Below the pieces are notes generated by a model. The model was not told the DNA's origin and did not search any database. It saw only the letters and a list, made by a program, of their open reading frames with translations. This document shows, piece by piece, positions 23,200 through 38,163 of a stretch of 64,000 nt of DNA. Source of the DNA: Candidatus Chloroploca sp. Khr17 (GTDB lineage: Bacteria; Chloroflexota; Chloroflexia; Chloroflexales; Chloroflexaceae); contig NZ_RYFF01000007.1 in assembly GCF_004138165.1 (NCBI RefSeq), forward strand, positions 62,001-126,000. Reading direction: 5' to 3'. Each line of letters starts with the position of its first letter. Position 1 is the stretch's first letter. The translations under genes were made by a program, and so were the position numbers.

Positions 23200-23967
23200 T
23201 CACTCCTCCATCTCAATCATCACCATCAGCGTGCCATGATCCTGGCGCAGTTGTTCAGCCGAGAGGTCGATCACCTGAGCAATGCCCTGCTCATCAAAGG
23301 GGGCTTGATAACGATTGGCCCCGAGCTGCACCACGGCATGGCCGACCACGGGCGGAATAACACAGACACGAATCGCCCAGGTACCGTCGGGCTGCGGATG
23401 CACACTGAGCTGAAAACTATAACCCTCTTGCTCAACCTCAGTGATGAAGAGATCTTCCTCTTCGCCATAGGCCACACTAAGCGCCTCACGGGCCTGGATC
23501 ATCCGCACCACCATTTGCGAAGCCACAGCGATGCGCCCAAGGAGGCGATGCGAGCGCAGGGATGGCGGGGCGGGGCGGCGTACCGGAACGCGGGAGGCAA
23601 AAGGGGGCAACAACCGACCTTCACGTTCAGCCGTCGCGAGCGCAGCGGTACGGACAAACACCTCGGTACAATCAGCGCACTCCCAGAGATACCACCAGAC
23701 CTGAGGGAACGCCACGGCGGCGGCGCGGGCACCGGCATCAAGCGAGCGATCAACATACGCAGCCAGCGCATCGTGGCACGCCTGACAACCGCCGCGAGGC
23801 TCATCGGCACCGGGGAGCAACAGGCCAAGAATGTGGGTACGGAGGGCCATGCACTCGGGGCAACGGCGCATATGGCGGGCAATCGCGGGCGTCTGCAGCG
23901 GCTTGTGGGTACTAGTAAGTGTCAGCAGCAACGCCTCACGGATATCGTTACAAGAGGGTAGATTCAT
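23200..23967 (-). CDS. Zinc-finger anti-sigma-like protein, soluble
   Basis: 255 residues, no membrane helix. The N-terminus carries H32-x3-C36-x2-C39 (ARHMRRCPEC), the zinc anti-sigma pattern. Two further CxxC pairs follow: CQAC near 61 and CADC near 97. The C-terminal half (YGEEEDLFITEVEQEGYSFQLSVHPQ and following) looks like a beta-rich sensor domain. It lies downstream of the sigma gene on the same strand but beyond a strong palindrome, with its own promoter-like element at 24034-24064. The likely role is to hold the sigma factor inactive, with its own synthesis raised by that sigma factor. The zinc motif is seen; the partnership is inferred. Confidence 0.7.
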   Translation of the reverse strand: MNLPSCNDIREALLLTLTSTHKPLQTPAIARHMRRCPECMALRTHILGLLLPGADEPRGGCQACHDALAAYVDRSLDAGARAAAVAFPQVWWYLWECADCTEVFVRTAALATAEREGRLLPPFASRVPVRRPAPPSLRSHRLLGRIAVASQMVVRMIQAREALSVAYGEEEDLFITEVEQEGYSFQLSVHPQPDGTWAIRVCVIPPVVGHAVVQLGANRYQAPFDEQGIAQVIDLSAEQLRQDHGTLMVMIEMEE

Positions 23968-24033: not shown

Positions 24034-24064
24034 ATCTGTACCAAATTGCGCCAATTGACTCTTG
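24034..24064 (-). promoter_or_regulatory. Bipartite element, minus-strand copy (anti-sigma promoter)
   Basis: Read on the minus strand: CAAGAGTCAA, eight bases, ATTTGGTACAGAT. It ends 66 bases before the anti-sigma start codon at 23967. The identical 10- and 13-base blocks with the same eight-base gap occur on the plus strand at 25365-25395, 65 bases before the first secretion-locus gene. The simplest reading is a promoter read by the sigma factor encoded between them. Confidence 0.7.
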
Positions 24065-24106
24065 TTTTCGTCACACCGAGCCGAGCCACGGGGATAGGGC
24101 TGAAAG

Positions 24107-24157
24107 GCAACCTCTTAGGAAAAAGCCAGCTAAGCTGGCTTTTTCCTAAGAGGTTGC
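24107..24157. terminator. Perfect 24-bp-arm palindrome after the sigma gene
   Basis: Arms 24107-24130 and 24134-24157 pair over 24 bases with a TAA loop. The inner part reads AAAAAGCCAGC/GCTGGCTTTTT, giving T-runs on both strands. It abuts the sigma-factor stop codon (24158), so it should end that transcript and separate it from the anti-sigma gene. Its unusual length also fits a small repeat element. Confidence 0.75.
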
Positions 24158-24928
24158 TTAATAGATCCCACCATCATACCAATTGCGCAGATCAGGCCTA
24201 GCGCGGAGGTACGCCCGTGCCTCAGCAATAATCGCGTGGATGCGGGCCGTACTGAGATGCACCCGATGGCTAATCATCTCAGCGGTGAGATCATCGCACG
24301 CCCAGAGATGAAAAATCCGCGCATTGCGCTCACCCATAGTCCGGATCAATTCAGTCTCAACCAAACGATCGAGCATCTGACCGAGGGCCATCTTGTCGGG
24401 CGTATCGGGATCAGGATCTTCGACCGGCAGCGTCATCCAATCAACGGTACGATCAAACGTACCGGAGCGTTTGCGTGCGTGGAGATCGCGCAGATGGCGA
24501 TTGACCGCATTGGAAATGACCTGATAGGCCCAGGTAGAAAAGCGACTAGCAAAGCGAAACGAAGCGAGCGAGCGCAGCAACTCAAGCAAGGCCACCTGCG
24601 CGAGATCATCGAAATCGACGGCATCATCGCTCACCCAATCGAGGCCCGTATGGTGAAGTATCGCCCGCACCTGACCAAACCACGCCAACCACTCAGCTTC
24701 GTGGCCGGTCAAATCACCAGAGCGCAACGCATCAACGAGAGGCGCATCAAAATAGACATTCCACACCACCGAGCGCACATCCTCATCGCTGCTATCAGGT
24801 GAGACACACATCGCCACGCGTTGAGCCAGCGCCAATTGCGCGGCCTCAGTCAACGACCACTGTTCAGCCACCACCACACGGCGCACCACGGCGAGACATC
24901 GCAAACCAGAGGAATCACACGGCTCCAT
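24158..24928 (-). CDS. Alternative sigma-70-family (ECF-like) RNA polymerase sigma factor
   Basis: 256 residues from ATG 24928. Region 2 is clear: VDFDDLAQVALLELLRSLASFRFASRFSTWAYQVISNAVNRHLRD, about residues 115-160. A linker and a region 4 helix-turn-helix follow (IFHLWACDDLTAEMISHRVHLSTARIHAIIAEARAYLR), giving a two-domain group IV layout. The first 100 residues are an unusual N-terminal extension rich in hydrophobic and acidic residues. ATG 24928 has a GGAG nine bases upstream; a GTG at 25027 would add 33 residues. It sits between an anti-sigma-like gene and a type VII-like locus that share a promoter-like element, so it probably controls both. Confidence 0.85.
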   Translation of the reverse strand: MEPCDSSGLRCLAVVRRVVVAEQWSLTEAAQLALAQRVAMCVSPDSSDEDVRSVVWNVYFDAPLVDALRSGDLTGHEAEWLAWFGQVRAILHHTGLDWVSDDAVDFDDLAQVALLELLRSLASFRFASRFSTWAYQVISNAVNRHLRDLHARKRSGTFDRTVDWMTLPVEDPDPDTPDKMALGQMLDRLVETELIRTMGERNARIFHLWACDDLTAEMISHRVHLSTARIHAIIAEARAYLRARPDLRNWYDGGIY

Positions 24929-25028
24929 CAGAGGCTCCGACTTGCTACAGAAGGATCGAGTGAACAGAAACAAGTCACGTGACAGGGGTAGTGGCGTACC
25001 AGGAGCCAGGGCGGCCCACGCCAGCACC

Positions 25029-25095
25029 GTAACCTTTTCACAGACCTATCATAGCATATATGACAGGCATTACCAACATATGACCAAAAGGTTAC
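25029..25095. promoter_or_regulatory. 10-bp inverted repeat flanking the sigma promoter
   Basis: GTAACCTTTT (25029-25038) and AAAAGGTTAC (25086-25095) are perfect inverted copies that bracket the putative promoter at 25048-25076. They could be paired operator half-sites for a regulator or form a DNA loop. Confidence 0.45.
25048..25076 (-). promoter_or_regulatory. Candidate promoter of the sigma-factor gene
   Basis: On the minus strand: TTGGTA (25076-25071), a 17-base spacer ending in TGC, then TATGAT (25053-25048). This fits an extended -10 housekeeping promoter, so the sigma gene may be read by the main sigma factor. The leader to ATG 24928 would be about 110 bases. Confidence 0.5.
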
Positions 25096-25229
25096 AAGAA
25101 TCTAACCCTGGTTAAGGCGGGGTTAAGAGGGCAAGGTACGACTCTTGATGAGGGCCGCCCAAGGCCAACGCGCAGACCGGTGCGGTCTGGTCGAGCGGAT
25201 TAATGTCTGGAACACCAGAAGCCGGCACT

Positions 25230-25269
25230 AGGGAGTGCCGGCTTTAGCCGGCTAAAGCCGGCACTCCCT
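25230..25269. repeat. Perfect 40-bp palindrome
   Basis: AGGGAGTGCCGGCTTTAGCC followed directly by its reverse complement. A third GCCGGCACT block precedes it (25221-25229). The style matches intergenic repeats widespread in Chloroflexota genomes. It splits the 433-base gap between the sigma gene and the secretion locus. The rest of the gap is A-rich and without coding potential. Confidence 0.7.
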
Positions 25270-25364
25270 TCGGCAGCAGCGCAGAAAGCGTACGCTACAT
25301 ACCAGTTCGTCATTAGAGCAAAAAAAACACAACCCCAACGATTAAAAAATCTTAACCAAAAAAG

Positions 25365-25395
25365 CAAGAGTCAAAAAGGGGGATTTGGTACAGAT
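25365..25395 (+). promoter_or_regulatory. Bipartite element, plus-strand copy (secretion-locus promoter)
   Basis: CAAGAGTCAA (25365-25374), eight bases, ATTTGGTACAGAT (25383-25395). It ends 65 bases before ATG 25461. It matches the minus-strand copy at 24064-24034 in both blocks and spacing, while the eight bases between differ. Conservation of the blocks with a variable spacer is what a -35/-10 pair looks like. Confidence 0.7.
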
Positions 25396-25460: not shown

Positions 25461-26189
25461 ATGGCTGAGGTAAAGATTCGTCTTCGTTTAGGTCCATCTT
25501 CAGCTGATCAACGAGAACTAAATATTTCAGATGAGAAGATTGTTGGTGACCTGATTACCTATTGGAAAAAAGATTATCGCCTGGCCGAACAGGATGTCCA
25601 GGGTGAATTAATCCCCTATGCGCTCTACCGCGATCACGGCTCACATAAAGAACGTATTGACCCAAAACGCACGCTGCGCAGCCTGCGCATGCAAGCTTTT
25701 GAAGAGCTCTATCTGACCGATGCCCGCCAACCCTGGTGGCAAGGGCAAAAGCCTACAACACAACCACTAAAAGAGCCAAAGACTCCAAATCCTGTACCAC
25801 GACCAGATCCCATCACCAGGCCAGCGTTTGGCCCATGTTCGATTGAAATCGCACCGGGATGCGTCCACCAGATTGGGGAAAAAGGCCTGGTGCTAAACCG
25901 CGAATATTTGCTCAATGAGTTACCAAAGTCAGTCGTTGCGCGCGAACGAGCTTTGACGATGCTCGGGATCGAATCACGCCTTAGCGCAGTGAGTCGCGGT
26001 GAGCCAGGGCATTGCAGCATTATCTGGCGTCAAAATTGGTACCTCATCGCTCATCATCAGATCTACATCAGTGGAACAAAATACACGCGGAACGAGGCTG
26101 TTCACATTAATCAAACCACAACCCTCCTCCTGGGTCGCGAGGGTTGGCCAATCACCATACGGCTCCATTCAACGATTATTGCACGCTAA
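25461..26189 (+). CDS. Ubiquitin-like (YukD/EsaB-type) plus FHA-like protein
   Basis: 242 residues, soluble. Residues 1-90 (EVKIRLRLGPSSADQREL and following, to LRMQAFEELYLTDARQPW) look like the ubiquitin-like fold of YukD/EsaB and the EccD N-terminus. A proline-rich linker (residues 95-118) leads to a C-terminal domain. Its pattern VSRGEPGHCSIIWRQNWYL, then IYISGTKYTRNEAV and LLLGREGWPITIRL, resembles a degenerate FHA domain. It is the first gene of the secretion locus, directly behind the shared promoter element. It may be a cytosolic adaptor of the EccC motor. Both domain calls are by pattern and are not certain. Confidence 0.55.
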   Translation: MAEVKIRLRLGPSSADQRELNISDEKIVGDLITYWKKDYRLAEQDVQGELIPYALYRDHGSHKERIDPKRTLRSLRMQAFEELYLTDARQPWWQGQKPTTQPLKEPKTPNPVPRPDPITRPAFGPCSIEIAPGCVHQIGEKGLVLNREYLLNELPKSVVARERALTMLGIESRLSAVSRGEPGHCSIIWRQNWYLIAHHQIYISGTKYTRNEAVHINQTTTLLLGREGWPITIRLHSTIIAR

Positions 26190-26261: not shown

Positions 26262-26540
26262 ATGGCCATGATTCGGATGGATATCGACCAGGCACAGCAA
26301 ACGATCGATACGATGCGGCGGACAATGGAGGAATTCAATTCGCAACTGACAGCTTTGGGGGGCTCAGTTGAAGGTCTGATGGGTGCCTGGGAAGGCAATG
26401 CACAGATGAAGTTCTCGAATGTTTGGCAAGAATGGCGCACGCGGTTTCAGGCTTCGATCAACGATCTGGAACCAATGATTAGTGGTGTGACCAACGAACG
26501 CCAGCAGATTATTGATGCAGACAGCAGTGGCAGTTTTTGA
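26262..26540 (+). CDS. WXG100-family protein (EsxA-like)
   Basis: 92 residues, all helical. The turn between the two helices holds W43-E-G45 (LMGAWEGNAQMKF), the defining motif. Such small proteins are secreted as dimers by EccC/EssC motors. A strong AGGAGG precedes ATG 26262. The C-terminal YxxxD/E export motif of actinobacterial partners is not present; the tail ends ERQQIIDADSSGSF. A 15-bp hairpin follows the gene (26580-26617), then the motor gene, the classic neighbour. Confidence 0.92.
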   Translation: MAMIRMDIDQAQQTIDTMRRTMEEFNSQLTALGGSVEGLMGAWEGNAQMKFSNVWQEWRTRFQASINDLEPMISGVTNERQQIIDADSSGSF

Positions 26541-26617: not shown

Positions 26618-26700
26618 ATCGTCAAAACGTACGAACGAGACTATCTTCGAGCTTAAGGCAACTTGAACCTTGTGCTTGTCCTATCGCCAGGAGCTTTGCG

Positions 26701-29700
26701 ATGACATTTGCGACTGCCGAAAAAGTAGGTGATGCGGATCTGGCAGCATCAGGCGGATCAAACGAGCAACCGCTTACGCTCTTCAATCGTCCTCCGCGCA
26801 TTTTGCGCACCCTGCCTGATGATGAGATCAATATCCCTGGGCCACCGCAAGAGCCAACGATGCGCGGTGGGATGCGGTTAATTAGCATCCTGATTCCACT
26901 CATCTCGTCCCTCGTCTATCTTGGCATTGCAGGAGCACGGAGCAGCACAGCTGGGGCAGGTTCAATGCTGAGTGCCTTACCGATTGTCGTGATTGGTATG
27001 CTCACTGGCGGAGCGGCTTTTTATACCTATCGGCAGCAGAAGCGTGAATACGAAGCGGCGCTGGTGACGTATCGCGAGACCTACCAGGCGGCCCTAGAAA
27101 AGATTCGCCGCCAACTCCAGCAACTCGAACGTCAACAGCGCAGCTATTATGAGGAGAATGACCCAGATCTGAAAACCCTGCTCCAGATCGCCCATGGTGA
27201 GATCAACAAAAAGAATGAACCAGTACCATCAAGTCGGCTCTGGGAACGTCGGCCTGAAGATGCTGATTTTCTTGCGTTGCGCATTGGGCGCGGTGATCGA
27301 CCAACCAGTGTGACGATCAAGCCGCCCAGCGTCAATGCCTACACCAAAGACGTTGAAGACTCGCTGCTCATCGCTGAGCAATTTCGCCTTGTACGCGATG
27401 TTCCCGTTAGTCTCAATCTGCGCACCGTGGGGTCAATTGGCATCGCAGGCCCCGACGGACGAACACTCAATCTATTGCAGGCCCTGATCTGGCAACTTGT
27501 TATCCACCATTCATCAAGCGAAGTGCGGATTGCGGCCTTCTGGGATGCAACCTTTGATGACTCATGGGACTGGCTCCGCTACCTGCCCCATACACGGCCC
27601 CTGGATGGCGATGAGAGTTATCGCCTTCTGGCCCGCTATGACCGCAATCCAGAAGATAGCGTCCGCGTTCTCTCAGCCTTGAGTAAAGAACTCAAACGGC
27701 GGCGTGAAGATGACCAGCGTGGACAACGTCCCCACCTCGTTGTGATTCTGAGCAGTTACCTGCTGCATCGTGAAGACTACCCGCTCTTTGCGCAACTTAT
27801 TACCGGGCGAACAGCTGATATCAGTGCCATCTGCCTTGTCCCTGAGGTACGTGACGTGCCAAGTGAATGTGGTGGGTACATTGATCTGGTTCATGGAGGT
27901 TCCCCTGAACACGCACGGCTTGGGGTTGCAGGCAAAGGTGGCGGCTACAGTATCTTCAAAGCAGATATGGCAACAACCGAACAGAGTCGGGAACTCGCTC
28001 TACGCATAGCCCCGGTCGAATTGGCTGATACCGATGGTGGCCGTGAAATGCCCCGTAATGTTCCGCTGCTCTCGTTGCTTGGTATCCTCGACGCAGCAAC
28101 CTATGATCCGCAAATCCTCTGGGCGAAGGCACCTACCGATAGCTGGCATCCTGTGCCGGTTGGGGCTCAGGGTGCTGGAGTGCCAATGGAAATCAATTTG
28201 AATGAGGGCATTCACGGGGTGCATGGCATGATTGCCGGGGCTACCGGTGCCGGTAAAAGTGAATTGCTCTTGAGTTTTCTAATGGCCTTGGCGATTCGTC
28301 ATCACCCAGATCGACTCAATTTTCTCTTGATCGACTTCAAGGGTGGGGCCACTTTCCGCGATCTTGAAGCCTTGCCCCATACCTCCGGGATGGTCACAGA
28401 TCTCTCGGGTTTTATGGCTGAACGAGCATTGATTGCGATGAATAGCGAGCTCGATCGCCGTAAGCGCCTGTTGAGCGCCAAGGGAGTGCCCAATATTAAA
28501 AGCTACCGCCGGGCCGGTTTCGACCAGCGCGGCGAGCCCTTGCCCAACCTTTTCATTGCGATTGATGAATTTGATGAGATGATTCGCGACTATCCTCAGT
28601 TTCAGGATGAATTGATCCGCGTAGGCAAACAAGGGCGCAGTCTAGGGGTGCATTTGCTCTTTGCTACGCAGCAGCCTTCGCTGATTAAAGAAGGTCTACA
28701 AAATAACCTAAGTTATTGGATGTCACTACGGGTCAATTCAAAAGATGATAGCCGTACGATGCTTGGCCTACCCGACGCTGCCCAACTGGGGACAGATACA
28801 CCCGGGCGAGGTTTTCTGCGCGATAAGAATAGTGGTGTGCGGGTTTTCCAGTCGGCCCTCATTACGTCAACCTATCGCCAGGTTACGGGGCGGAGTACAA
28901 GCGAGATTGATCTTACAGGGCATTTGCGCATCAATACAAGTGAAACACGTGCCCAACAGATGTTTGAAGTGGAATTAGACGATCTGGTCAATCAACTCAA
29001 AACAACGCTGACTGAAAGCGGGCGCAACAAGTTGATTGAGGCAAGCATAGCCTCGATGTGCAAACAGTTCAATGAACTGTTCGAACGCAACCTGACTGAA
29101 ACCGAATTGAAAGAACAGCACCGGACAACCCGCGCTGCTATTGACCTCTTTCTCCAGGCTCTCCATCAACTCTCGTATGACCCGAAGGAGATGAGTGAAG
29201 CTGAAGCAATTGACCATCAAATCAATCTGGCTTCACGCAAACTCATTACCCTATTAATGGGTAATCGCGAGCAGATTAGTGAGATTCGTCTGGTTGCACG
29301 CCATATGGTTGAGGCGCAAGGGGCACGCTATGCAGCACAAAAGTATCGCATCTGGGAAGAACCCCTCCCCGCCACCTTGCCCCTCGCCGAACTAATGCAA
29401 CGTAGCGGCGGCAAGGCCAACTGGCTTGATGTGCCCTTTGGCGTTGTTGATCAGCCCGAACTTGCCTGTCACGATCTGCTAACAACTGATCTCGCAGGTG
29501 CCGGGGGCAATTTGCTGGCACTGGGAGCTTCGGGCAGCGGCAAAACAACCCTGCTCCAGACCATCATGCTGGCCTTAGCTCATAGCCTCAGCCCAACCGA
29601 GCTCTGGTTTTATGTCATTGATAGTACTGGCGCAGGCATTGGTCTGCAAGGCAAGCTACCGCATCTTGCCCATGTGCTTGGGCCACGCCAACATCTGTTG

Positions 29701-31167
29701 ATTGAACGTATGTTTGTCGAGTTGCAGAATCAACTCGAAGATCGTCGCACCATGTTCCAACAACAGGGCGTAGCTTCGCTGAGCCAGTACCGCGAGCGCT
29801 ATAGCCGACAGCCGGATGGTCTTCAACCTCCGCCCCCAGCGCTTGTCATTGTCATTGACAATCTGGCCGAGGTAACGAATCAGAATGAACTGGTGCTTGA
29901 GACCCTTAAAACCTTCATGCGTGAGAGCCGCGCCTATGGGATCTATTTTCTTGTGTCAGCCTACACGATGCGTGAAGTTGGCTCGCTCTTGGCCAATTTC
30001 GAGACCCGTATCGCGCTCCGGCTCAATAGCGACGATGATTCAGCCGCGCTGATTGGCAAAGATTATGCGAGCAAGCTGATCAAACCTGATCAACCTGGAC
30101 GTGCGTTTTTGCGTGGTACCCCACGCCCCATCGAAGTGCAACTGGCGTTGCCAGCCCTGCGTTCGCGCAAGGTAGCGGCAGATGTTGATGTGCAAGCCGA
30201 AGAGAAGGAAGTTGCGTACAGCGACCTTGTTGAGGAACTGCAACGGTCAGCCGATCTCATACGAGCAACCTGGCAGCACATCATGGCAAGCGGTGATCCT
30301 CGCAAACCCCAGGGCTTACATCTGCTGCCGCCAACAGTTGAAGTGGGAACCTTGCTCACACAGTTGCCTCCAGACTCAAGCCCGACGATCCCCCTGGGAA
30401 TCGAGAGCGCTTCACTCCAACCGTTGCTCTGGTCGCTCGAACAAAATGCGCATCTCTTGATCACAGGCGGCTTGCGCAATGGCAAACGCTCGCTCTTACG
30501 CACACTGATACTTGCGGCAACCCGGCGGATGGCGCTTGACGATGTCGAATTTGTGCTGGTTGACTATAGTATGCGCGCCCTGCGCGATCTTGCTGCACTG
30601 CCCCAGGTGCGCACGTTTGCGGAACTGACGCTGGCAAACAAAGAAGTCCGTGACATCACTGTTGTGACGGAGAAGGATGAATTCCTAGCGGTGCTCCAAA
30701 AATTGACGGGCGAACTGGCTGAACGACTCAACCTGCTGCGCCGTGGCCTCCCAATTACCCGACGTACCATCGTGATCATCCATAACTGGGATCTGGTCGC
30801 GCAGGATAATCCGATGACAACCGCGTTTGACCCCTTTGTTCGCCGTGGTAGTGATGTCGGCTTGCATTGTGTGATCTCCTATACCGATCCGATGAGCCTC
30901 AATAGTGGCACGCTGCTACGAGCCGTCCGGGCTAGTGCGATTGAGGTGATTAGTGGACGCCCCCCCAGCGATTCGGCACCCTATGCTCCGCCCATTACCA
31001 AACGGTTCAAGAGCGTGCTTGCCAGTGAGATGCCCCCTGGCCGTGGGTTTGTCCTGGAAACCGGGCAACCTGCCCGCCTCGTGCAACTTGCCTATGCCAG
31101 CCCGGAATATGTTAGGGAAGAACTGAAACGCATTGGAACCGACTCACATCATCCCATCGCACAGTAG
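26701..31167 (+). CDS. eccC: EccC/EssC-type three-ATPase secretion motor (FtsK/SpoIIIE family)
   Basis: 1488 residues. An N-terminal RPPRILRTLPDDEINIPGPP is followed by two membrane helices (about 57-77 and 92-109), a coiled region, then three FtsK-type ATPase domains. Domain 1 has an intact Walker A (GATGAGKS, K519) and LLIDFKGG. Domain 2 has LGASGSGKTT (K948). Domain 3 has GGLRNGKRS (K1262), with arginine in place of the usual Ser/Thr after lysine. It powers export of WXG100 proteins through the membrane. ATG 26701 follows AGGAG by seven bases; an earlier start at 26590 would run through the upstream hairpin. The fused three-domain form is as in EssC and in mycobacterial EccC. Confidence 0.92.
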   Translation: MTFATAEKVGDADLAASGGSNEQPLTLFNRPPRILRTLPDDEINIPGPPQEPTMRGGMRLISILIPLISSLVYLGIAGARSSTAGAGSMLSALPIVVIGMLTGGAAFYTYRQQKREYEAALVTYRETYQAALEKIRRQLQQLERQQRSYYEENDPDLKTLLQIAHGEINKKNEPVPSSRLWERRPEDADFLALRIGRGDRPTSVTIKPPSVNAYTKDVEDSLLIAEQFRLVRDVPVSLNLRTVGSIGIAGPDGRTLNLLQALIWQLVIHHSSSEVRIAAFWDATFDDSWDWLRYLPHTRPLDGDESYRLLARYDRNPEDSVRVLSALSKELKRRREDDQRGQRPHLVVILSSYLLHREDYPLFAQLITGRTADISAICLVPEVRDVPSECGGYIDLVHGGSPEHARLGVAGKGGGYSIFKADMATTEQSRELALRIAPVELADTDGGREMPRNVPLLSLLGILDAATYDPQILWAKAPTDSWHPVPVGAQGAGVPMEINLNEGIHGVHGMIAGATGAGKSELLLSFLMALAIRHHPDRLNFLLIDFKGGATFRDLEALPHTSGMVTDLSGFMAERALIAMNSELDRRKRLLSAKGVPNIKSYRRAGFDQRGEPLPNLFIAIDEFDEMIRDYPQFQDELIRVGKQGRSLGVHLLFATQQPSLIKEGLQNNLSYWMSLRVNSKDDSRTMLGLPDAAQLGTDTPGRGFLRDKNSGVRVFQSALITSTYRQVTGRSTSEIDLTGHLRINTSETRAQQMFEVELDDLVNQLKTTLTESGRNKLIEASIASMCKQFNELFERNLTETELKEQHRTTRAAIDLFLQALHQLSYDPKEMSEAEAIDHQINLASRKLITLLMGNREQISEIRLVARHMVEAQGARYAAQKYRIWEEPLPATLPLAELMQRSGGKANWLDVPFGVVDQPELACHDLLTTDLAGAGGNLLALGASGSGKTTLLQTIMLALAHSLSPTELWFYVIDSTGAGIGLQGKLPHLAHVLGPRQHLLIERMFVELQNQLEDRRTMFQQQGVASLSQYRERYSRQPDGLQPPPPALVIVIDNLAEVTNQNELVLETLKTFMRESRAYGIYFLVSAYTMREVGSLLANFETRIALRLNSDDDSAALIGKDYASKLIKPDQPGRAFLRGTPRPIEVQLALPALRSRKVAADVDVQAEEKEVAYSDLVEELQRSADLIRATWQHIMASGDPRKPQGLHLLPPTVEVGTLLTQLPPDSSPTIPLGIESASLQPLLWSLEQNAHLLITGGLRNGKRSLLRTLILAATRRMALDDVEFVLVDYSMRALRDLAALPQVRTFAELTLANKEVRDITVVTEKDEFLAVLQKLTGELAERLNLLRRGLPITRRTIVIIHNWDLVAQDNPMTTAFDPFVRRGSDVGLHCVISYTDPMSLNSGTLLRAVRASAIEVISGRPPSDSAPYAPPITKRFKSVLASEMPPGRGFVLETGQPARLVQLAYASPEYVREELKRIGTDSHHPIAQ

Positions 31168-31197: not shown

Positions 31198-31989
31198 ATG
31201 ACGACCCAAGCCACCTTCGTGTTGAGCCAGGAAGAAGTCTATGTTGCCCTTTCTTACGTACGTGCCCGAGGACTCCTTGGCATTGATCCGGCCTCGCTCG
31301 CCAGTGTTAACGCTGAAGAGCGTCAGGCGCTGCTTGCCGCAGCTGGGCGTGCTCTGCAAGCACGAGGGATGTTGAACCGCGATGAAGAGAAGCAACTCGT
31401 CCTGGAAGAAACCGTCCGTACAACGCTCAATGGGGCAGCCCGAGCGCCACGTTCACTCTCAACGATTACCCGTAAAGCTGGACAGGAAGCCTTGCAGAGC
31501 TATATCGTCCATCACAACGATGGTCTTTGGATCAAGCATACGCAGCCCGAGAGTGGCTTGCATCAGTTTACGCTTGCCCGTGAAAGGCTGTCCCTCCAGG
31601 AAGATTTGACTGCACTGTTTGCGATCGCCGATCAGACACGGCCACAAGCGACAACTTTTACGCTTGATCAAGCCGAGTTAGAGCAAATCCAGAACGCCGT
31701 GCAAGCAGAACCAGATCATGTGGCAGAACGCGTGGTTGCAGCCGGGGCCGACGAGGCAACTGGACAACTATTTGCCGAATTGCTCACTGGCGAACGTGAC
31801 TCGGCCATCGTGCAAACGATTGATCGCACAAACCCGGGAGCGGAAGAAGAGACGCGCACCGTAACGCTCTTGCATAACCATCAGGGCTTCTGGATGATGC
31901 GAACCTTGAATCCAACTCAACTACAGTGCCAGCCAGCCAGTGCCGAAGAAGTCAGGCAGATGCTGAAGGAACTGATTGACCTGTTGTAG
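31198..31989 (+). CDS. EspG-like putative secretion chaperone
   Basis: 263 residues, soluble. The opening TFVLSQEEVYVALSYVRARGLLG, then EERQALLAAAGRALQARGMLNRDEEKQL, and a beta stretch ALQSYIVHHNDGLWIKHTQPESGLHQFTLA recall the EspG family of ESX chaperones. A second similar beta stretch near residue 215 (RTVTLLHNHQGFWMMRTLNPTQ) suggests the quasi-twofold fold of that family. Such proteins hold effectors before export. It stands between the motor and the WXG-lipase gene, the place expected for a dedicated chaperone. The assignment is by pattern and context only. Confidence 0.5.
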   Translation: MTTQATFVLSQEEVYVALSYVRARGLLGIDPASLASVNAEERQALLAAAGRALQARGMLNRDEEKQLVLEETVRTTLNGAARAPRSLSTITRKAGQEALQSYIVHHNDGLWIKHTQPESGLHQFTLARERLSLQEDLTALFAIADQTRPQATTFTLDQAELEQIQNAVQAEPDHVAERVVAAGADEATGQLFAELLTGERDSAIVQTIDRTNPGAEEETRTVTLLHNHQGFWMMRTLNPTQLQCQPASAEEVRQMLKELIDLL

Positions 31990-32120: not shown

Positions 32121-33338
32121 ATGCCAGGCATCATTCGTGCTGATACCGATCAACTCCGTGCCGTCGCCAACCAGATGCGTACAACTGCCGAACAGATTTC
32201 CACCGGAACTGGTTCGATGCAACAGTCAATGGAGATGCTCGATATGGTCTGGAGTGGCAAGGCGCGTGATCGTGGCATGGAGGCATGGGCACGCATTGTC
32301 GCCCGCTACAACCCCGAGGTCAACACCCTGCTTCACCTTGCCAAAGAACTCGAAGCCCTGGCGCAACGCATGGACGAGGCTGCGGCTGTCTTTGGCGATA
32401 GCGGAAGTGGGAGTGGGGGAGGTACAGCAGGCGGCATCGGCGAGGGCCAGGAAAAACCGTGGTATGAAGATAAACCAAAACTTGAGCAACCACCGCAAAA
32501 CATGGGTGAAATTTTTGATCTTTTAGGCCCAGATAAAAATAATGGCAATGAAATCCAAATCTACCAGGTTGGCCCAAATGAGTTTGCCGTGCTACTGCAA
32601 GGGAGTGATCAGAGCCGTACCGGGATCAATTCGCTCTGGACAGATGCGCCTGAGGCTGGTTTCGGTGGAGACACTGAATATGCGCGAAAGGTGCGGGAGA
32701 TGTTGCAGGAGTTGGGTGAAAAACACCCTGGCGCAGCGGTCAATCTGTTTGGTTATAGCCTGGGAGGCATTGTTGCCCAGCAAGTGGCGAGTAACACGTC
32801 TTTTTTCAACCAGAATGGCTTGAATCTCAAGACTGTCAGCACCTATGGAGCACCAAAAATCGACACTGTGCCAGAGGGCAAGACCTATGCAGATTTTGAT
32901 GCCCCGGGTGACATTGTGAGTGGCTTACCTGTTTCGGTTACACCTGAGTCGGTTTTAACAACCGTTGCTTTTGGGTTAAAGCCAGGAGAAACACTTGCGG
33001 TAGGTGGTGCAATGCATATGACTGGATATCAACATGATTTTATGCCAACACGCCAGGACATGAATAATACAACTCCTCCCTTCAACGCCGATACATGGGT
33101 TCTGGTTGACAGCTATAACGATGCAACGGACTACGGCGCACAAGCTGATGAGAACATCGGAGATATCGTACAAGATACCGGTAAGTCCATCGGCGAAACC
33201 ATAAAAGATACGGGCCAGAAGATAGGTGATCAAGCCGAGAAGATTGGCCAGGAAGTTCAGAACAAGGTTCAGGAGGGCAAAGAACAGGTTGATACATACA
33301 TAAACAAGTTAGGCGCATGGATACCCGATCCTTTCTAA
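32121..33338 (+). CDS. WXG100-lipase fusion, candidate type VII effector
   Basis: 405 residues in four parts. Residues 1-92 are a WXG100 helical hairpin with W44-S-G46. Residues 93-112 are a Gly/Ser linker. Residues about 140-310 are an alpha/beta hydrolase of the class 3 lipase type: nucleophile elbow GYSLGG with Ser213, Asp264 in APGDIVSGLP, and His305 in TGYQHDF form a plausible triad. Residues 335-395 are amphipathic, with repeating IGETIKDTGQKIGDQAEKIG-like units that could bind membrane. The WXG part should direct export, and the hydrolase would act on lipids or esters outside the cell. AAGGAG precedes ATG 32121. No immunity-like gene is evident next to it. Confidence 0.78.
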   Translation: MPGIIRADTDQLRAVANQMRTTAEQISTGTGSMQQSMEMLDMVWSGKARDRGMEAWARIVARYNPEVNTLLHLAKELEALAQRMDEAAAVFGDSGSGSGGGTAGGIGEGQEKPWYEDKPKLEQPPQNMGEIFDLLGPDKNNGNEIQIYQVGPNEFAVLLQGSDQSRTGINSLWTDAPEAGFGGDTEYARKVREMLQELGEKHPGAAVNLFGYSLGGIVAQQVASNTSFFNQNGLNLKTVSTYGAPKIDTVPEGKTYADFDAPGDIVSGLPVSVTPESVLTTVAFGLKPGETLAVGGAMHMTGYQHDFMPTRQDMNNTTPPFNADTWVLVDSYNDATDYGAQADENIGDIVQDTGKSIGETIKDTGQKIGDQAEKIGQEVQNKVQEGKEQVDTYINKLGAWIPDPF

Positions 33339-33374: not shown

Positions 33375-34199
33375 ATGAACAGTTTCGAGTTCTGGGCGCA
33401 TATGCAGAGCTACGCGCAGATGAGTCGCCTCTGGTGGTACACATTTGCCGCGTTGCCCGCAATGATCATTGCCGGTGGGGCGTATCCGTTGATGGCATTT
33501 GCGTTGCGGCGCAAGACGTCGCCGCCAATGATCTTTTTCTGGCTCGTCGTCGCTGGCATTCCGGCCTTGATGGTCTTTCCATCGTTTTATGTCAGCACCA
33601 ACCTTGAGGCCTCGCTTGCTCACGTGGAGTTTGCGATCCCTGGCCGACCACAGGATTTTCCCCTTGCGCAGGCACGGATGCTCGGGGCAAGCCTTGATAC
33701 GCTGGCCCTCTATGGCATTGTGGGGGCAGCCCTGACGATGATCATCATGGTAGCAGGCTCGCTCGTTGGTGATGTGCCAGTCGCAAGCCCGATTGTGCAA
33801 CAGATTTCACAGTCGCTGACCAAAGCCGTGACGAGAGCGATGAATCCTGGGCGAAGTGCAGCGGCCCTCAGTAGTCAATACGGTGTGCTGAAAGTCACCC
33901 AGGGGTCAGCAACTGGCAGCCAGTATGCGGTACGCAATGGCACCATTGGCAAACAGGATGCCGATATTTTGATTACCGATACCGTGGTCTCACGCAAACA
34001 TGCCCGCCTCGAAGTCAAAGGTGGCACGCCACAACTCATTGATGATGGCAGCATGAATGGAACCTATATTGTGCGGGCCGGGCAAGAATATGAGCTCAAT
34101 GGGGCCGCGATGGAACTGCAACCAGGCGATACGATCTATCTTGGTCCACCGAGCCTACCGACGGCTGTGGCAATGGTCTATGAGCGAAATGGAGCCTAG
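33375..34199 (+). CDS. Membrane-anchored FHA-domain protein
   Basis: 274 residues. Three membrane helices (about 20-44, 52-73, 106-131) precede a cytosolic FHA domain. Its core reads TIGKQDADILITDTVVSRKHARLEV, then DDGSMNGTYIVR and LQPGDTIYLG; the Ser-Arg-x-His and Asn-Gly residues that bind phosphothreonine are present. It is probably a receptor for a target phosphorylated by the kinase at 35456. FHA proteins sit in many type VII loci, where they link phosphorylation to the motor. Confidence 0.85.
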   Translation: MNSFEFWAHMQSYAQMSRLWWYTFAALPAMIIAGGAYPLMAFALRRKTSPPMIFFWLVVAGIPALMVFPSFYVSTNLEASLAHVEFAIPGRPQDFPLAQARMLGASLDTLALYGIVGAALTMIIMVAGSLVGDVPVASPIVQQISQSLTKAVTRAMNPGRSAAALSSQYGVLKVTQGSATGSQYAVRNGTIGKQDADILITDTVVSRKHARLEVKGGTPQLIDDGSMNGTYIVRAGQEYELNGAAMELQPGDTIYLGPPSLPTAVAMVYERNGA

Positions 34200-34201
34200 C
34201 A

Positions 34202-35446
34202 ATGCGTTATCTGCTCATCCTCGTTGTTATGCTGGCCCTGTTGGTGCCAACCTTTGCGGCAGCTCAGGGAAGCCCAGACGTTCAGGTTGACACCTATGGC
34301 CTGCGCATTGATGGCCGGACGGTCGAGGTGCTCTTTCGTGTCCGCGATCGAGCAACTGGCCGTGACCTGCAAGGGATCACCCCACGCGATCTACGGCTCA
34401 TTGAGGATAATCTCACGATCAATCCACGCCTTGAAGTGAGCGAAACCCAAACCGATGCCGTCAATCCATTTCAGAGTGTCGATCTGGCGACGCTGCCAGG
34501 TGGTACCCAGCCAGTCGCAGGGAGTCAGGCAGTTGAGTTGGAGGTTGTAGGTTCAACCATTGGCATTGTCTACGATGCCAGTTTGCTGATGAATGCGGCG
34601 GGCGATCCAACCGATTACGTGGCGCGTGGGCGGGGATTGATTATTGATTTTCTGGAAGCCGGACGAACGATCGCCCCGAACAATCCCGAGCACATCGGAC
34701 TCTTTATCCCTCTCAGTGTTCCTACCGTCAGTGGTGAAAACATACGACCGATGGAACTACCCGATTTTGTGCATGATCGCAATGCAGTCATCAACACTCT
34801 CAATCAGATGGCACCACGTACCGGCAAGACCAATATCTTTGATACGATTTCGCTTGCAGTGGCGGCAACAGCCGATGCAGCCGCTGAGCGAGGGGCCGAG
34901 GCCTATGTGCTGGTGGTGACCGATGGTGGCGACTCGACCAGCGTTGGTTCACTTGATGCACTGATGGCCGAGGCAAGCGCACGCAATGTCAGGATGCTCA
35001 TTGTTGGCGTTGGCCCACAGCAACGCCTCGCAAGCAATGCTGCCACCCTGACGACCCTGGCAAACAAAACCAAGGGTGCGTATATTGGCAACCCCTCAGG
35101 CGAAGAGATCCAGAATTTTTATGGCAGTCATGTCAACGTTGTCAGTCAAAGCGCGTATGTGTTGCGCTACACAACTGACCTGATTGATGACGGCAAAACC
35201 CATAATCTGATCATTCGTGTTGAAGGCCCCGGACGGGGCGAAAGCCCGGCTGTGCCACTCTTTGTTGACATCCCTATTGATGGACCCGAAGGTGGGCTCA
35301 ACCTGCGCCCAGCTTTGCAGGGATACGCGCTACGAGCCGTGCCATTGCTCATCGTCGTCTCCGTCTTGATGACTTCATTGGTCTGGTTTAGTCGACGGTT
35401 CAAAGGGCCAAGCAGTTCGATCAGTGGTGGTATTACCCGAACATAA
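34202..35446 (+). CDS. Secreted/membrane von Willebrand factor A domain protein
   Basis: 414 residues. It has a signal-type helix (1-21, MRYLLILVVMLALLVPTFAAA), a beta domain (about 28-80), then a VWA domain (about 115-330) with IGIVYDASLLMN and VLVVTDGGDST, and a C-terminal membrane helix (about 378-396). The metal-site motif D-x-S-x-S reads D125-A-S127-L-L, so its second serine is missing and metal binding may be weak. The layout places the VWA domain outside the cell. It lies three bases after the FHA gene and ten before the kinase gene. It is probably a structural partner of the export apparatus or its cargo. Confidence 0.75.
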   Translation: MRYLLILVVMLALLVPTFAAAQGSPDVQVDTYGLRIDGRTVEVLFRVRDRATGRDLQGITPRDLRLIEDNLTINPRLEVSETQTDAVNPFQSVDLATLPGGTQPVAGSQAVELEVVGSTIGIVYDASLLMNAAGDPTDYVARGRGLIIDFLEAGRTIAPNNPEHIGLFIPLSVPTVSGENIRPMELPDFVHDRNAVINTLNQMAPRTGKTNIFDTISLAVAATADAAAERGAEAYVLVVTDGGDSTSVGSLDALMAEASARNVRMLIVGVGPQQRLASNAATLTTLANKTKGAYIGNPSGEEIQNFYGSHVNVVSQSAYVLRYTTDLIDDGKTHNLIIRVEGPGRGESPAVPLFVDIPIDGPEGGLNLRPALQGYALRAVPLLIVVSVLMTSLVWFSRRFKGPSSSISGGITRT

Positions 35447-35455
35447 GAGGTTGTT

Positions 35456-36835
35456 ATGCAAGATCTGGCCCCTGGATCACGCTATGGCAGCTTTCAGATC
35501 ATTACGAAACTAGGACGTGGTCTGACTGGCCCTGTCTACAAGGCAGTCTATACAAGGGACGGTTCTGAAGTGGCCCTTAAATTTCTCGATGGGCAGGACG
35601 AGAGTGTTAAATCCTATTTCTTCAATGAAATGGGCCTCTTACGTCGCGCCAAAGAGCATGGTCGCAACCATACGCATCTAGTTGAGTATGTTGCAAGTTA
35701 TACCACACAGCAACCTTTCTGTCTGGCAACCCGGTTTTATGATGGACAAGAGCTGACTGAGTTATTGACAAGTTGGGTCGCCCCTGGGTTGGCCTTACGC
35801 ATTATTGAGCAGATTGCCGGGGCACTCGATTATCTGCACTATGGGCATCCCGATGCACCTGTTGTCCACCGCGACGTCAAGCCTGGCAATATTATGGTAA
35901 ATTCCGCCGGGGATGCACTGCTCATTGATCTGAGTGCAGGCAAGTACCCAGGGTTTATGCGCGAAAACGAGCGTAGCCTGGGCACGCCACAATATATGCC
36001 CCCCGAACAGTATGAAGGCGACGAACAGCCACAAACGGATCAGTTTGCCCTGGCAATGGTCGCTTACCAGCTGCTGAGTGGCAAGGCCCTGCTCGGTGGA
36101 CATGCCGACCGTGAGCAGAAGCAGATGCGTGCGTTGCGCGATAGTGGGTATGCCCGCATCCGCCAGGGCCTCTCCAAGATGCCTGCCACGGCAGACGTGA
36201 TCATTCGTGCGGTGGCATATGAATGGACGTTACGTTATGCAACCTGCGAAGAGCTTGCCTATGAATTGCGCCGTGCCCTCGCGAGCGATGGGATTTCGCT
36301 TGATCTGATGGCCCCGGTACCCGTTCAGCACAAATACAAACAATGGTTGGCGTACGGGGTAATGGGCGTGGCAGTGGTCATAGCCCTCTTGATCCTCGTG
36401 ATGAATCCGTTTCAGACAAGCTCCCCTCAAGTACCTGGACGAACGGTGAATCCACCAACAGCAACCCTGGCGGTTATCGAGCAACCTGGAACAGGCGCGA
36501 ATCAAGCAGGGTTCGTCATTAATCCACCAGGCGCGGGGTCGGTCGCAATCGATCCAACCACGGGGCTTGCACCAACCACAAGCATTGCTGCGCCGAGTAC
36601 AGCCTCACTGAATACCGGTGGCAGCATCACTCCAGCCCGTTCGGGCTGTGCGCTGCGCAACATACCCTCGACCGACGGCAGCATTATTCCATACAGTGCG
36701 CAGAGCCGGTTGATTCCTTCTGGGGTCAACCTGACCATCCTTGAACAACGGAACACATGGTATAACGTGCGCCTGCCCGACAGTCGCACCGGCTGGTGTC
36801 CAGATTATCAACTCAACCTGGGAGGTATCCGATGA
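35456..36835 (+). CDS. Ser/Thr protein kinase with external SH3-like domain
   Basis: 459 residues. The PknB-like kinase domain (10-280) has the glycine loop LGRGLTG, Lys42 in VALKF, HRD at 138-140, Asn145, Asp158 in a DLS rather than DFG context, and GTPQYMPPEQY. A membrane helix (297-317) and a Pro/Thr-rich linker lead to an extracytoplasmic SH3b-like domain (about 390-459, ending RTGWCPDYQLNLGGIR). It probably senses the cell wall or envelope and phosphorylates FHA-linked targets. The kinase-helix-exterior plan also recalls EssB/YukC, which is a pseudokinase, but here the catalytic residues look intact. Confidence 0.87.
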   Translation: MQDLAPGSRYGSFQIITKLGRGLTGPVYKAVYTRDGSEVALKFLDGQDESVKSYFFNEMGLLRRAKEHGRNHTHLVEYVASYTTQQPFCLATRFYDGQELTELLTSWVAPGLALRIIEQIAGALDYLHYGHPDAPVVHRDVKPGNIMVNSAGDALLIDLSAGKYPGFMRENERSLGTPQYMPPEQYEGDEQPQTDQFALAMVAYQLLSGKALLGGHADREQKQMRALRDSGYARIRQGLSKMPATADVIIRAVAYEWTLRYATCEELAYELRRALASDGISLDLMAPVPVQHKYKQWLAYGVMGVAVVIALLILVMNPFQTSSPQVPGRTVNPPTATLAVIEQPGTGANQAGFVINPPGAGSVAIDPTTGLAPTTSIAAPSTASLNTGGSITPARSGCALRNIPSTDGSIIPYSAQSRLIPSGVNLTILEQRNTWYNVRLPDSRTGWCPDYQLNLGGIR

Positions 36836-38163
36836 CGGCCAAAACGTTCACCCAGGCCTTTGACATTGGCAGTCAATGTGACAAAGGCCGTCGCCCAAAT
36901 AACGAAGACCGGGTCTTGCGGGTTGAGGAGCAAAAGCAGGTCACTGAAGCCCAGCGCCGAGCCCTGGGACGACTCTACATTGTTGCTGATGGCGTTGGTG
37001 GCAATGATAACGGCGAGGTCGCGAGCAAACGGGTCGTCGAAAGGTTAATGTTCCACTACTACGAGGGCGAGCACCCGGAGGGAAGTAGCTATGCCGAGCG
37101 TTTCCAACGTGCGATCCAGGCGACAACCCGCGAGATCTTTGAGGAGTCAGTCGCCGCCAATAATAATATGCGCTCGACCATGGCAGCGGCGCTGATTCTT
37201 GATCATCAAGGCCAGCCAGACAAACGCCAAGCCATCATTGCCAATGTGGGCGATAGTCCCGTCATCCTCTTTCGCAAAGGGGCAAAACCACAAAAACTAA
37301 GCCAGGATCACGTGAGACGCGACCAGTCGCTGTCGCAGGCCATGGGCGACGCAATGGTCAACGTCACGATCTTTAACCAGACTCTCCAGCCCGATGATAT
37401 CCTCGTGATCTGTTCCGACGGGCTCAGCGACGGGGCCAAGGGGCCTGTTCCGCCCAGTGCCATCGAAAAAATAGTCCGCACGATGCCTTCACAGGCCGCC
37501 GCCGACGAACTGGTGCGCTTAGCCAAACGGATCGGCAGCAACGACAACATCTCAGCGATTGTGATCCGCAATGGCGAGCGCCCGCTGCCCGTGCGCCTGA
37601 TAACGCAAGGGGTCGGGGCATTCTTTGGGGTTGCCGTGCTGATCCTTGCGGCCTTTCTGCTGATCAGAGCAACCGACCCGGAAGGCAGTTTCTTGCCTGA
37701 AGGCATTGAAATCAATTTCCAAGGACTTGACGATCAAGGCAGTGGCCTTCCGCCTGACCCGACAACTGGCATCAAGCCAAGCTCGACACCAGCGCCAACA
37801 GCCACCCCCGTGCCAATCCAACCAGTTACAACAAATCGCCCTGGGGCGCCTGCTGCTGCAACCCCAAGGCCAAACCCGCCGCAACAGCAACAAGGCGGGC
37901 CGACAGCAACCCCGAGTGTAGCCACAGCGGCACCAAGTGCAACGGTGGATCCTAAGCTATTGGCACCACAACCGACAGAAACGCCGACACCGACGCCGAC
38001 ACCGACGCCGACACCACCGCCAACCCAACCGGAACCAGAACCAGAACCGGAACCAGAACCAGAACCAGAACCGGAACCAGAACCGGAACCGGAACCGGAA
38101 CCACAACCGGAACCACAACCGGGAGATGGCAATGGAAATAAAGATCGTGATCCTTATCCATAG
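36832..38163 (+). CDS. PP2C-family protein phosphatase with Pro/Glu-rich tail
   Basis: 443 residues. The PPM domain (1-250) has the metal-site residues in RPNNEDRV, VADGVGG, CSDGLSD and GSNDNISAIV. A membrane helix (257-277) follows. The rest is a low-complexity exterior tail: a Thr/Pro/Gln part, a TPTPTPTP run, then a long Glu-Pro run and PQPEPQPGDGN. The enzyme should reverse the action of the preceding kinase; its ATG overlaps the kinase stop (ATGA) behind GGAGG, so the two are translationally coupled. The Glu-Pro stalk could span the wall. Confidence 0.9.
   Translation: MTAKTFTQAFDIGSQCDKGRRPNNEDRVLRVEEQKQVTEAQRRALGRLYIVADGVGGNDNGEVASKRVVERLMFHYYEGEHPEGSSYAERFQRAIQATTREIFEESVAANNNMRSTMAAALILDHQGQPDKRQAIIANVGDSPVILFRKGAKPQKLSQDHVRRDQSLSQAMGDAMVNVTIFNQTLQPDDILVICSDGLSDGAKGPVPPSAIEKIVRTMPSQAAADELVRLAKRIGSNDNISAIVIRNGERPLPVRLITQGVGAFFGVAVLILAAFLLIRATDPEGSFLPEGIEINFQGLDDQGSGLPPDPTTGIKPSSTPAPTATPVPIQPVTTNRPGAPAAATPRPNPPQQQQGGPTATPSVATAAPSATVDPKLLAPQPTETPTPTPTPTPTPPPTQPEPEPEPEPEPEPEPEPEPEPEPEPQPEPQPGDGNGNKDRDPYP
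37983..38128 (+). repeat. Low-complexity coding repeats (ThrPro and GluPro)
   Basis: Tandem CCGACACCGACG-type units followed by GAACCAGAACCGG-type units inside the PP2C gene. Repeat number is likely to vary between strains through slippage. Confidence 0.8.

Follow-up and report, generated by a model that had tools for sequence, protein, structure and literature searches.

In mycobacteria, the ECF sigma factor SigM activates ESX-4, a type VII secretion locus (PMC10117145; references 33, 34, 57 and 58 there). ECF sigma factors are also known to be paired with class I (ASDI, Hx3Cx2C) anti-sigma factors, as in SigR-RsrA and RpoE-ChrR (PMC7406223). In the window, by which we mean the whole 64-kb stretch of Chloroploca DNA that was analysed, an ECF-type sigma gene stands beside an anti-sigma-like gene and a type VII secretion (T7SS)-like locus. 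The arrangement resembles SigM/ESX-4 in that an ECF sigma factor would act on a type VII locus, a relationship predicted here from promoter sequences and not measured. It differs in belonging to another phylum and another sigma factor, and in a predicted regulon that also takes in peptidoglycan hydrolases destined for export and RCC1 propellers. As in SigR-RsrA and RpoE-ChrR, a sigma2-sigma4 protein adjoins a zinc-motif anti-sigma factor of the soluble type, and the anti-sigma gene is predicted to be under the sigma factor's own promoter. Control of a T7SS by an ECF sigma factor is thus already known; the promoter code, the wider regulon and a feedback loop confined to the anti-sigma gene would be new variants.

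The sigma factor, its putative inhibitor and the T7SS-like locus

The sigma gene (24158..24928, minus strand) encodes 256 residues from an ATG at 24928, in a reading frame that is open to a GTG at 25027. Its product matches Sigma70_r2 (E 9.4e-11) and TIGR02937 (61.8 bits, against a cut-off of 42.9). Region 4 is weak in the window protein (0.029) and significant in 10 of 21 relatives, and in a structure model the two regions correspond to sigma-E region 2 and sigma-70 region 4, joined by a low-confidence linker. Sigma70_r3 was matched in one of the 21 family members; with sigma2 and sigma4 present and neither sigma3 nor sigma1.1, the protein belongs with the ECF (group 4) sigma factors. Unlike SigR and RpoE, it carries about 60 extra N-terminal residues, which structure-search matches hardly cover. 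Relatives were sought within the class Chloroflexia and occur in 24 of 158 genomes, all 24 of them in the order. We found no account of this family in the literature, in a search that covered mostly papers outside subscription.

The anti-sigma-like gene (23200..23967, minus strand; 255 residues) encodes two tandem zinc motifs, H32-x3-C36-x2-C39 and (Y93)-x3-C97-x2-C100. The N-terminal Hx3Cx2C, the class I signature, is present in all 13 alignment rows long enough to show the N-terminus, and the second motif is present in 16 of 16 rows, where the three Chloroploca have Y in place of H. The zf-HC2 profile scores 13.3 bits, below its cut-off of 22.2, and no convincing membrane segment was found in the protein. 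The tandem motifs and a C-terminal beta domain set it apart from RsrA and ChrR. This domain dominates the structure search, in which the zinc part is hardly covered, and in the model it resembles MATH/TRAF sandwiches (Z 8.3, 109 residues, rmsd 3.1), a likeness that may be just a common arrangement. Adjacency of the sigma and anti-sigma genes is often preserved in relatives, even at about 30% identity, and we infer that the anti-sigma-like protein would bind and inhibit the neighbouring sigma factor.

The T7SS-like locus lies on the plus strand. Its first gene (gene 1, 25461..26189; 242 residues) has no Pfam match and accompanies EccC-like genes in other Chloroflexales. Downstream lie genes for a WXG100 protein (26262..26540; PF06013, 3.9e-11; TIGR03930, 53.9 bits, cut-off 44.85), an EccC/EssC-type ATPase (26698..31167; PDB matches to EccC5 and YukB), a weakly EspG-like protein (31198..31989; PF14011, E 7.7e-5, below cut-off) and a WXG100-lipase fusion recognised by profile matches (32121..33338), followed by the FHA, VWA, Ser/Thr kinase and PP2C phosphatase genes of the cluster (33375..38163). 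Two components of a type VII system, an EccC-type ATPase and a WXG100 substrate, are present, with TIGR03924, TIGR03925 and TIGR03930 above cut-off; Pfam recognised no EccB, EccD, EccE or MycP membrane core in the cluster. The T7SS loci of other Chloroflexales share the set of gene 1, WXG100, EccC, FHA, VWA and kinase genes, with PP2C in some. The WXG100-lipase fusion is a probable T7SS substrate. It is 45% identical in C. mongolica, as against 89-97% for nearly all its neighbours, which suggests that this putative substrate may be rapidly exchanged.

A paired element upstream of two genes

The original prediction held that two identical 31-base copies of a bipartite element stand before the anti-sigma-like gene and gene 1, and both its coordinates and its strands proved exact. 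The element has the form CAAGAGTCAA-N8-ATTTGGTACAGAT. One copy occupies 24034..24064 on the minus strand, with a -35 box CAAGAG at 24064-24059 and a -10 box GGTACAGAT at 24042-24034; the other occupies 25365..25395 on the plus strand, with CAAGAG at 25365-25370 and GGTACAGAT at 25387-25395. There are zero mismatches outside the 8-base spacer, which, as predicted, is equal in length and unlike in sequence (TTGGCGCA and AAAGGGGG). The distance to the start codons, given as 65-66 bases, measures 66 bases from the minus copy to the anti-sigma ATG at 23967 and 65 bases from the plus copy to the gene 1 ATG at 25461. Dinucleotide shuffles of the window gave a chance expectation of 0.00 for the paired element, and a scan of the whole 6.38-Mb genome, which the original prediction had proposed, detected no further copy when up to 3 mismatches were allowed. 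The core motif, CAAGAG-N16-GGTACA.AT, is shorter than the sequence originally proposed.

We consider it highly probable, from sequence comparison, that both copies serve as promoters for the ECF-type sigma factor encoded beside them and drive an export and cell-wall regulon. The shared sequence might instead be a dispersed repeat or a recent regional duplication with no regulatory role, and unrelated repeats (GCCGGCTTTAGCCGGC) are indeed present in the vicinity; however, the spacers and flanks of the two copies differ, the match is limited to the two boxes and is not expected by chance, and the motif is kept across genera with different flanks. Contradicted by this cross-genus conservation and by the lack of a third copy, a repeat or duplication has a negligible chance of being correct, and we rejected it.

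The sigma gene has no CAAGAG/GGTAC site before it, and so lacks the ECF promoter of its own that is common, but not universal, among such genes. It had been predicted to have a TTGGTA/TATGAT promoter instead, and a sigma-70-like candidate, TTGGTA-N17-TATGAT, is indeed present (25048..25076, minus strand) and kept in two congeners. This is the sole sigma-70-like site found upstream of the gene, although shuffles give 0.8 such matches. Between the sigma and anti-sigma genes lies an intrinsic-terminator-like hairpin (24111..24153, minus strand; 20 pairs counted by scan); computed over a slightly longer stretch, its minimum free energy is -44.1 kcal/mol and its z -12.7. Two congeners and a genome of another genus, G054, likewise have a strong hairpin at the equivalent position, though its sequence differs. 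Given the hairpin that follows the sigma gene, the sigma and anti-sigma genes are probably on separate transcripts, such that, of the two, the element governs the anti-sigma gene alone. In both respects, a sigma gene without the promoter and a hairpin separating it from the anti-sigma gene, the locus departs from SigR-RsrA and RpoE-ChrR.

Conservation of the motif within and beyond Chloroploca

We scanned one genome per species, about 85,000 species in all, for exact matches to the paired element; this set may lack the window's own genome. The element was found in Ca. Chloroploca asiatica and Ca. Chloroploca mongolica only, with two copies in each at corresponding places. The minus copy is identical in the two congeners, but the three Chloroploca genomes are nearly identical along the whole anti-sigma side, and conservation on this side is therefore of little weight. 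On the T7SS side, almost all of the C. asiatica sequence is different, the exception being the element with some 25 bases preceding it; the element has one mismatch there, despite other flanks and other downstream genes. At the T7SS position, behind the matching promoter element, C. asiatica has a 15-kb replacement cluster (L035 from 8834 onwards, then L096) with PP2C, VWA, kinase and FHA genes and without EccC.

With one mismatch at most, the three Chloroploca genomes contain 4, 7 and 8 motif sites. Across 82 genomes of the order, there are 27 matches at this stringency, compared with 3 for the reversed pattern; 19 fall in Chloroploca, two in G054, two in G024, and the rest are singletons in four other genomes. 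Every one of the 82 genomes with more than one match is on the sigma-family list. The pattern CAAGAGTC-N13-TGGTACNNAT, with up to 2 mismatches, matched 8, 13 and 12 times in the three Chloroploca, compared with 2, 0 and 0 times when reversed. A control pattern with a spacer one base longer, which also included one extra fixed A, gave no match in Chloroploca; two good-looking matches to it, in G024 and G013, fall within a coding gene and were rejected as sites.

In Chloroploca, most sites with 0-1 mismatch are followed within about 250 bases by a long ORF on the same strand, the exceptions being two sites at 283 and 480 bases and two that overlap an ORF start. Many copies in unrelated, non-promoter positions had been named as an outcome that would speak against regulation by the sigma factor; they were not seen at up to one mismatch, whereas half of the 2-mismatch matches fall inside unrelated ORFs. 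Proteins encoded downstream contain M23 peptidase, amidase, CHAP, RCC1, cohesin/dockerin and DUF4012 domains, and a subtilase domain at a 2-mismatch site. Most of them start with a hydrophobic, signal-like stretch, as judged by eye. Thus, the original prediction of a regulon comprising the secretion locus and a feedback loop was supported in both its parts but was too narrow, with sites genome-wide standing mostly before further genes for exported proteins.

Small HTH genes just downstream of several sites raise the alternative that a DNA-binding activator or repressor, such as a LuxR-type or excisionase-like HTH protein, uses the element as its operator, with ordinary promoters nearby. We regard this as improbable: the two halves are unlike, with neither a dyad nor a direct repeat, the 16-base gap is fixed, as the longer-spacer control shows for Chloroploca, most sites point to a start codon at a distance of 5-250 bases, and the window pair has no such HTH genes beside it.

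Sites of the same layout occur in other genera. In G054, the sigma factor is 49% identical and the anti-sigma factor about 45% identical to those of the window, and the pair adjoins a different T7SS operon, with genes for WXG100 proteins and an EccC-like ATPase. Upstream of this operon are two sites with the identical 31-base layout, CGAGAGTC..TTTGGTACAGAT and CAAGAGTC..GTTGGTACAGAT, and the G054 anti-sigma gene is preceded by the -10 half of the motif. Sites with equal spacing precede the anti-sigma gene in G056, the T7SS in G021 and, in G024, a WXG100 operon as well as a gene for a VWA protein. A weight matrix built from nine sites outside Chloroploca ranks the minus copy first and the plus copy second among about 128,000 positions in the window, with scores of 34.0 and 27.6, the next being 16.0. 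The predicted sigma-controlled promoter pair is thus strengthened both by the recurrence of motif and spacing at anti-sigma genes, T7SS loci or both, and by the recovery of the window sites with a matrix built from other genera only. Among sigma homologues of about 37% identity or less, the -10 part alone or nothing recognisable is found nearby, which argues that promoter specificity drifts. G021, a draft assembly, has the T7SS-side site and no sigma relative stronger than E 7.5e-4, and the two G024 sites are on a contig without any of that genome's family sigma factors. Unlike the window, the T7SS loci of G030, G031 and G046 lack a sigma pair of this kind in their vicinity, and the motif is not repeated in these genomes.

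These comparisons also bear on whether the promoters, if real, are read by another sigma factor, either the paralogue, whose gene is on contig C62, or the housekeeping sigma factor with an extended -10. The genome does encode a second family member (31% identity), and TGG-TACAGAT resembles an extended -10. However, no GGTAC site flanks the paralogue. The consensus of 20 sites is C-A-A-G-A-G, 16 bases, G-G-T-A-C-A-n-A-T, with G23, G24, A26, C27 and A30 invariant, and the constancy of G23, G24 and C27 is unlike a TATAAT box. Furthermore, the motif flanks orthologues of the window sigma factor in four genomes, and repeated sites are confined to genomes of the sigma family. We consider another sigma factor unlikely, marginally more so than an operator.

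The predicted circuit

Assignment of the promoters to the window sigma factor leads to the following scheme, in which both its specificity and the start points are predicted from the sequence. RNA polymerase with the window sigma factor would recognise CAAGAG as the -35 and, 16 bases on, GGTACA.AT as the -10, and transcripts would start about 7 bases downstream of each copy. Transcription would run rightwards from the plus copy into the T7SS-like locus and leftwards from the minus copy into the anti-sigma gene; elsewhere in the genome, the sigma factor would transcribe genes for large exported proteins, among them peptidoglycan hydrolases and RCC1 propellers. With a candidate housekeeping-type promoter before the sigma gene and a strong terminator-like hairpin at its end, the active sigma factor would raise its own inhibitor and not itself, and the feedback loop would therefore be solely negative. 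Very probably, the two copies switch on together the T7SS-like machine, exported cell-wall-cutting and surface proteins, and the sigma factor's brake.

Behind the switch lies a T7SS in two species and the FHA/VWA/kinase/phosphatase cluster in C. asiatica, which suggests a fixed switch with exchangeable secretion loci. More tentatively, this Chloroflexales sigma family may bring a T7SS, peptidoglycan hydrolases for export and giant RCC1-propeller proteins under a single switch, with only the anti-sigma gene subject to feedback; the switch would stay put as one secretion locus behind it gives way to another. If so, it would represent a programme by which filamentous phototrophs manage contact or their cell envelope. 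CAAGAG-N16-GGTACA.AT offers a testable promoter code and target list for the sigma family in bacteria known mostly from enrichment cultures, and it predicts when the T7SS is made and which other exported proteins accompany it.

Other features of these regions were also observed. A small excisionase-like HTH gene lies between the promoter, or promoter-like site, and the next locus in four other genomes (loci L082, L085, L083 and L036) and is absent from the window. A hairpin repeat, GCCGGCTTTAGCCGGCTAAAGCCGGC, is located at 25226-25270, and relatives of it occur in both intergenic regions of G013; pairwise comparison of the two upstream regions of G013 found this intergenic hairpin repeat and nothing else. 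CTTAACC repeats, 11 bases apart, lie at 25080-25135, upstream of the sigma gene's own promoter, and are mostly kept in congeners. A single CTTAACC is present at 25352-25359, before the T7SS element, and these copies are possibly a response-regulator site.
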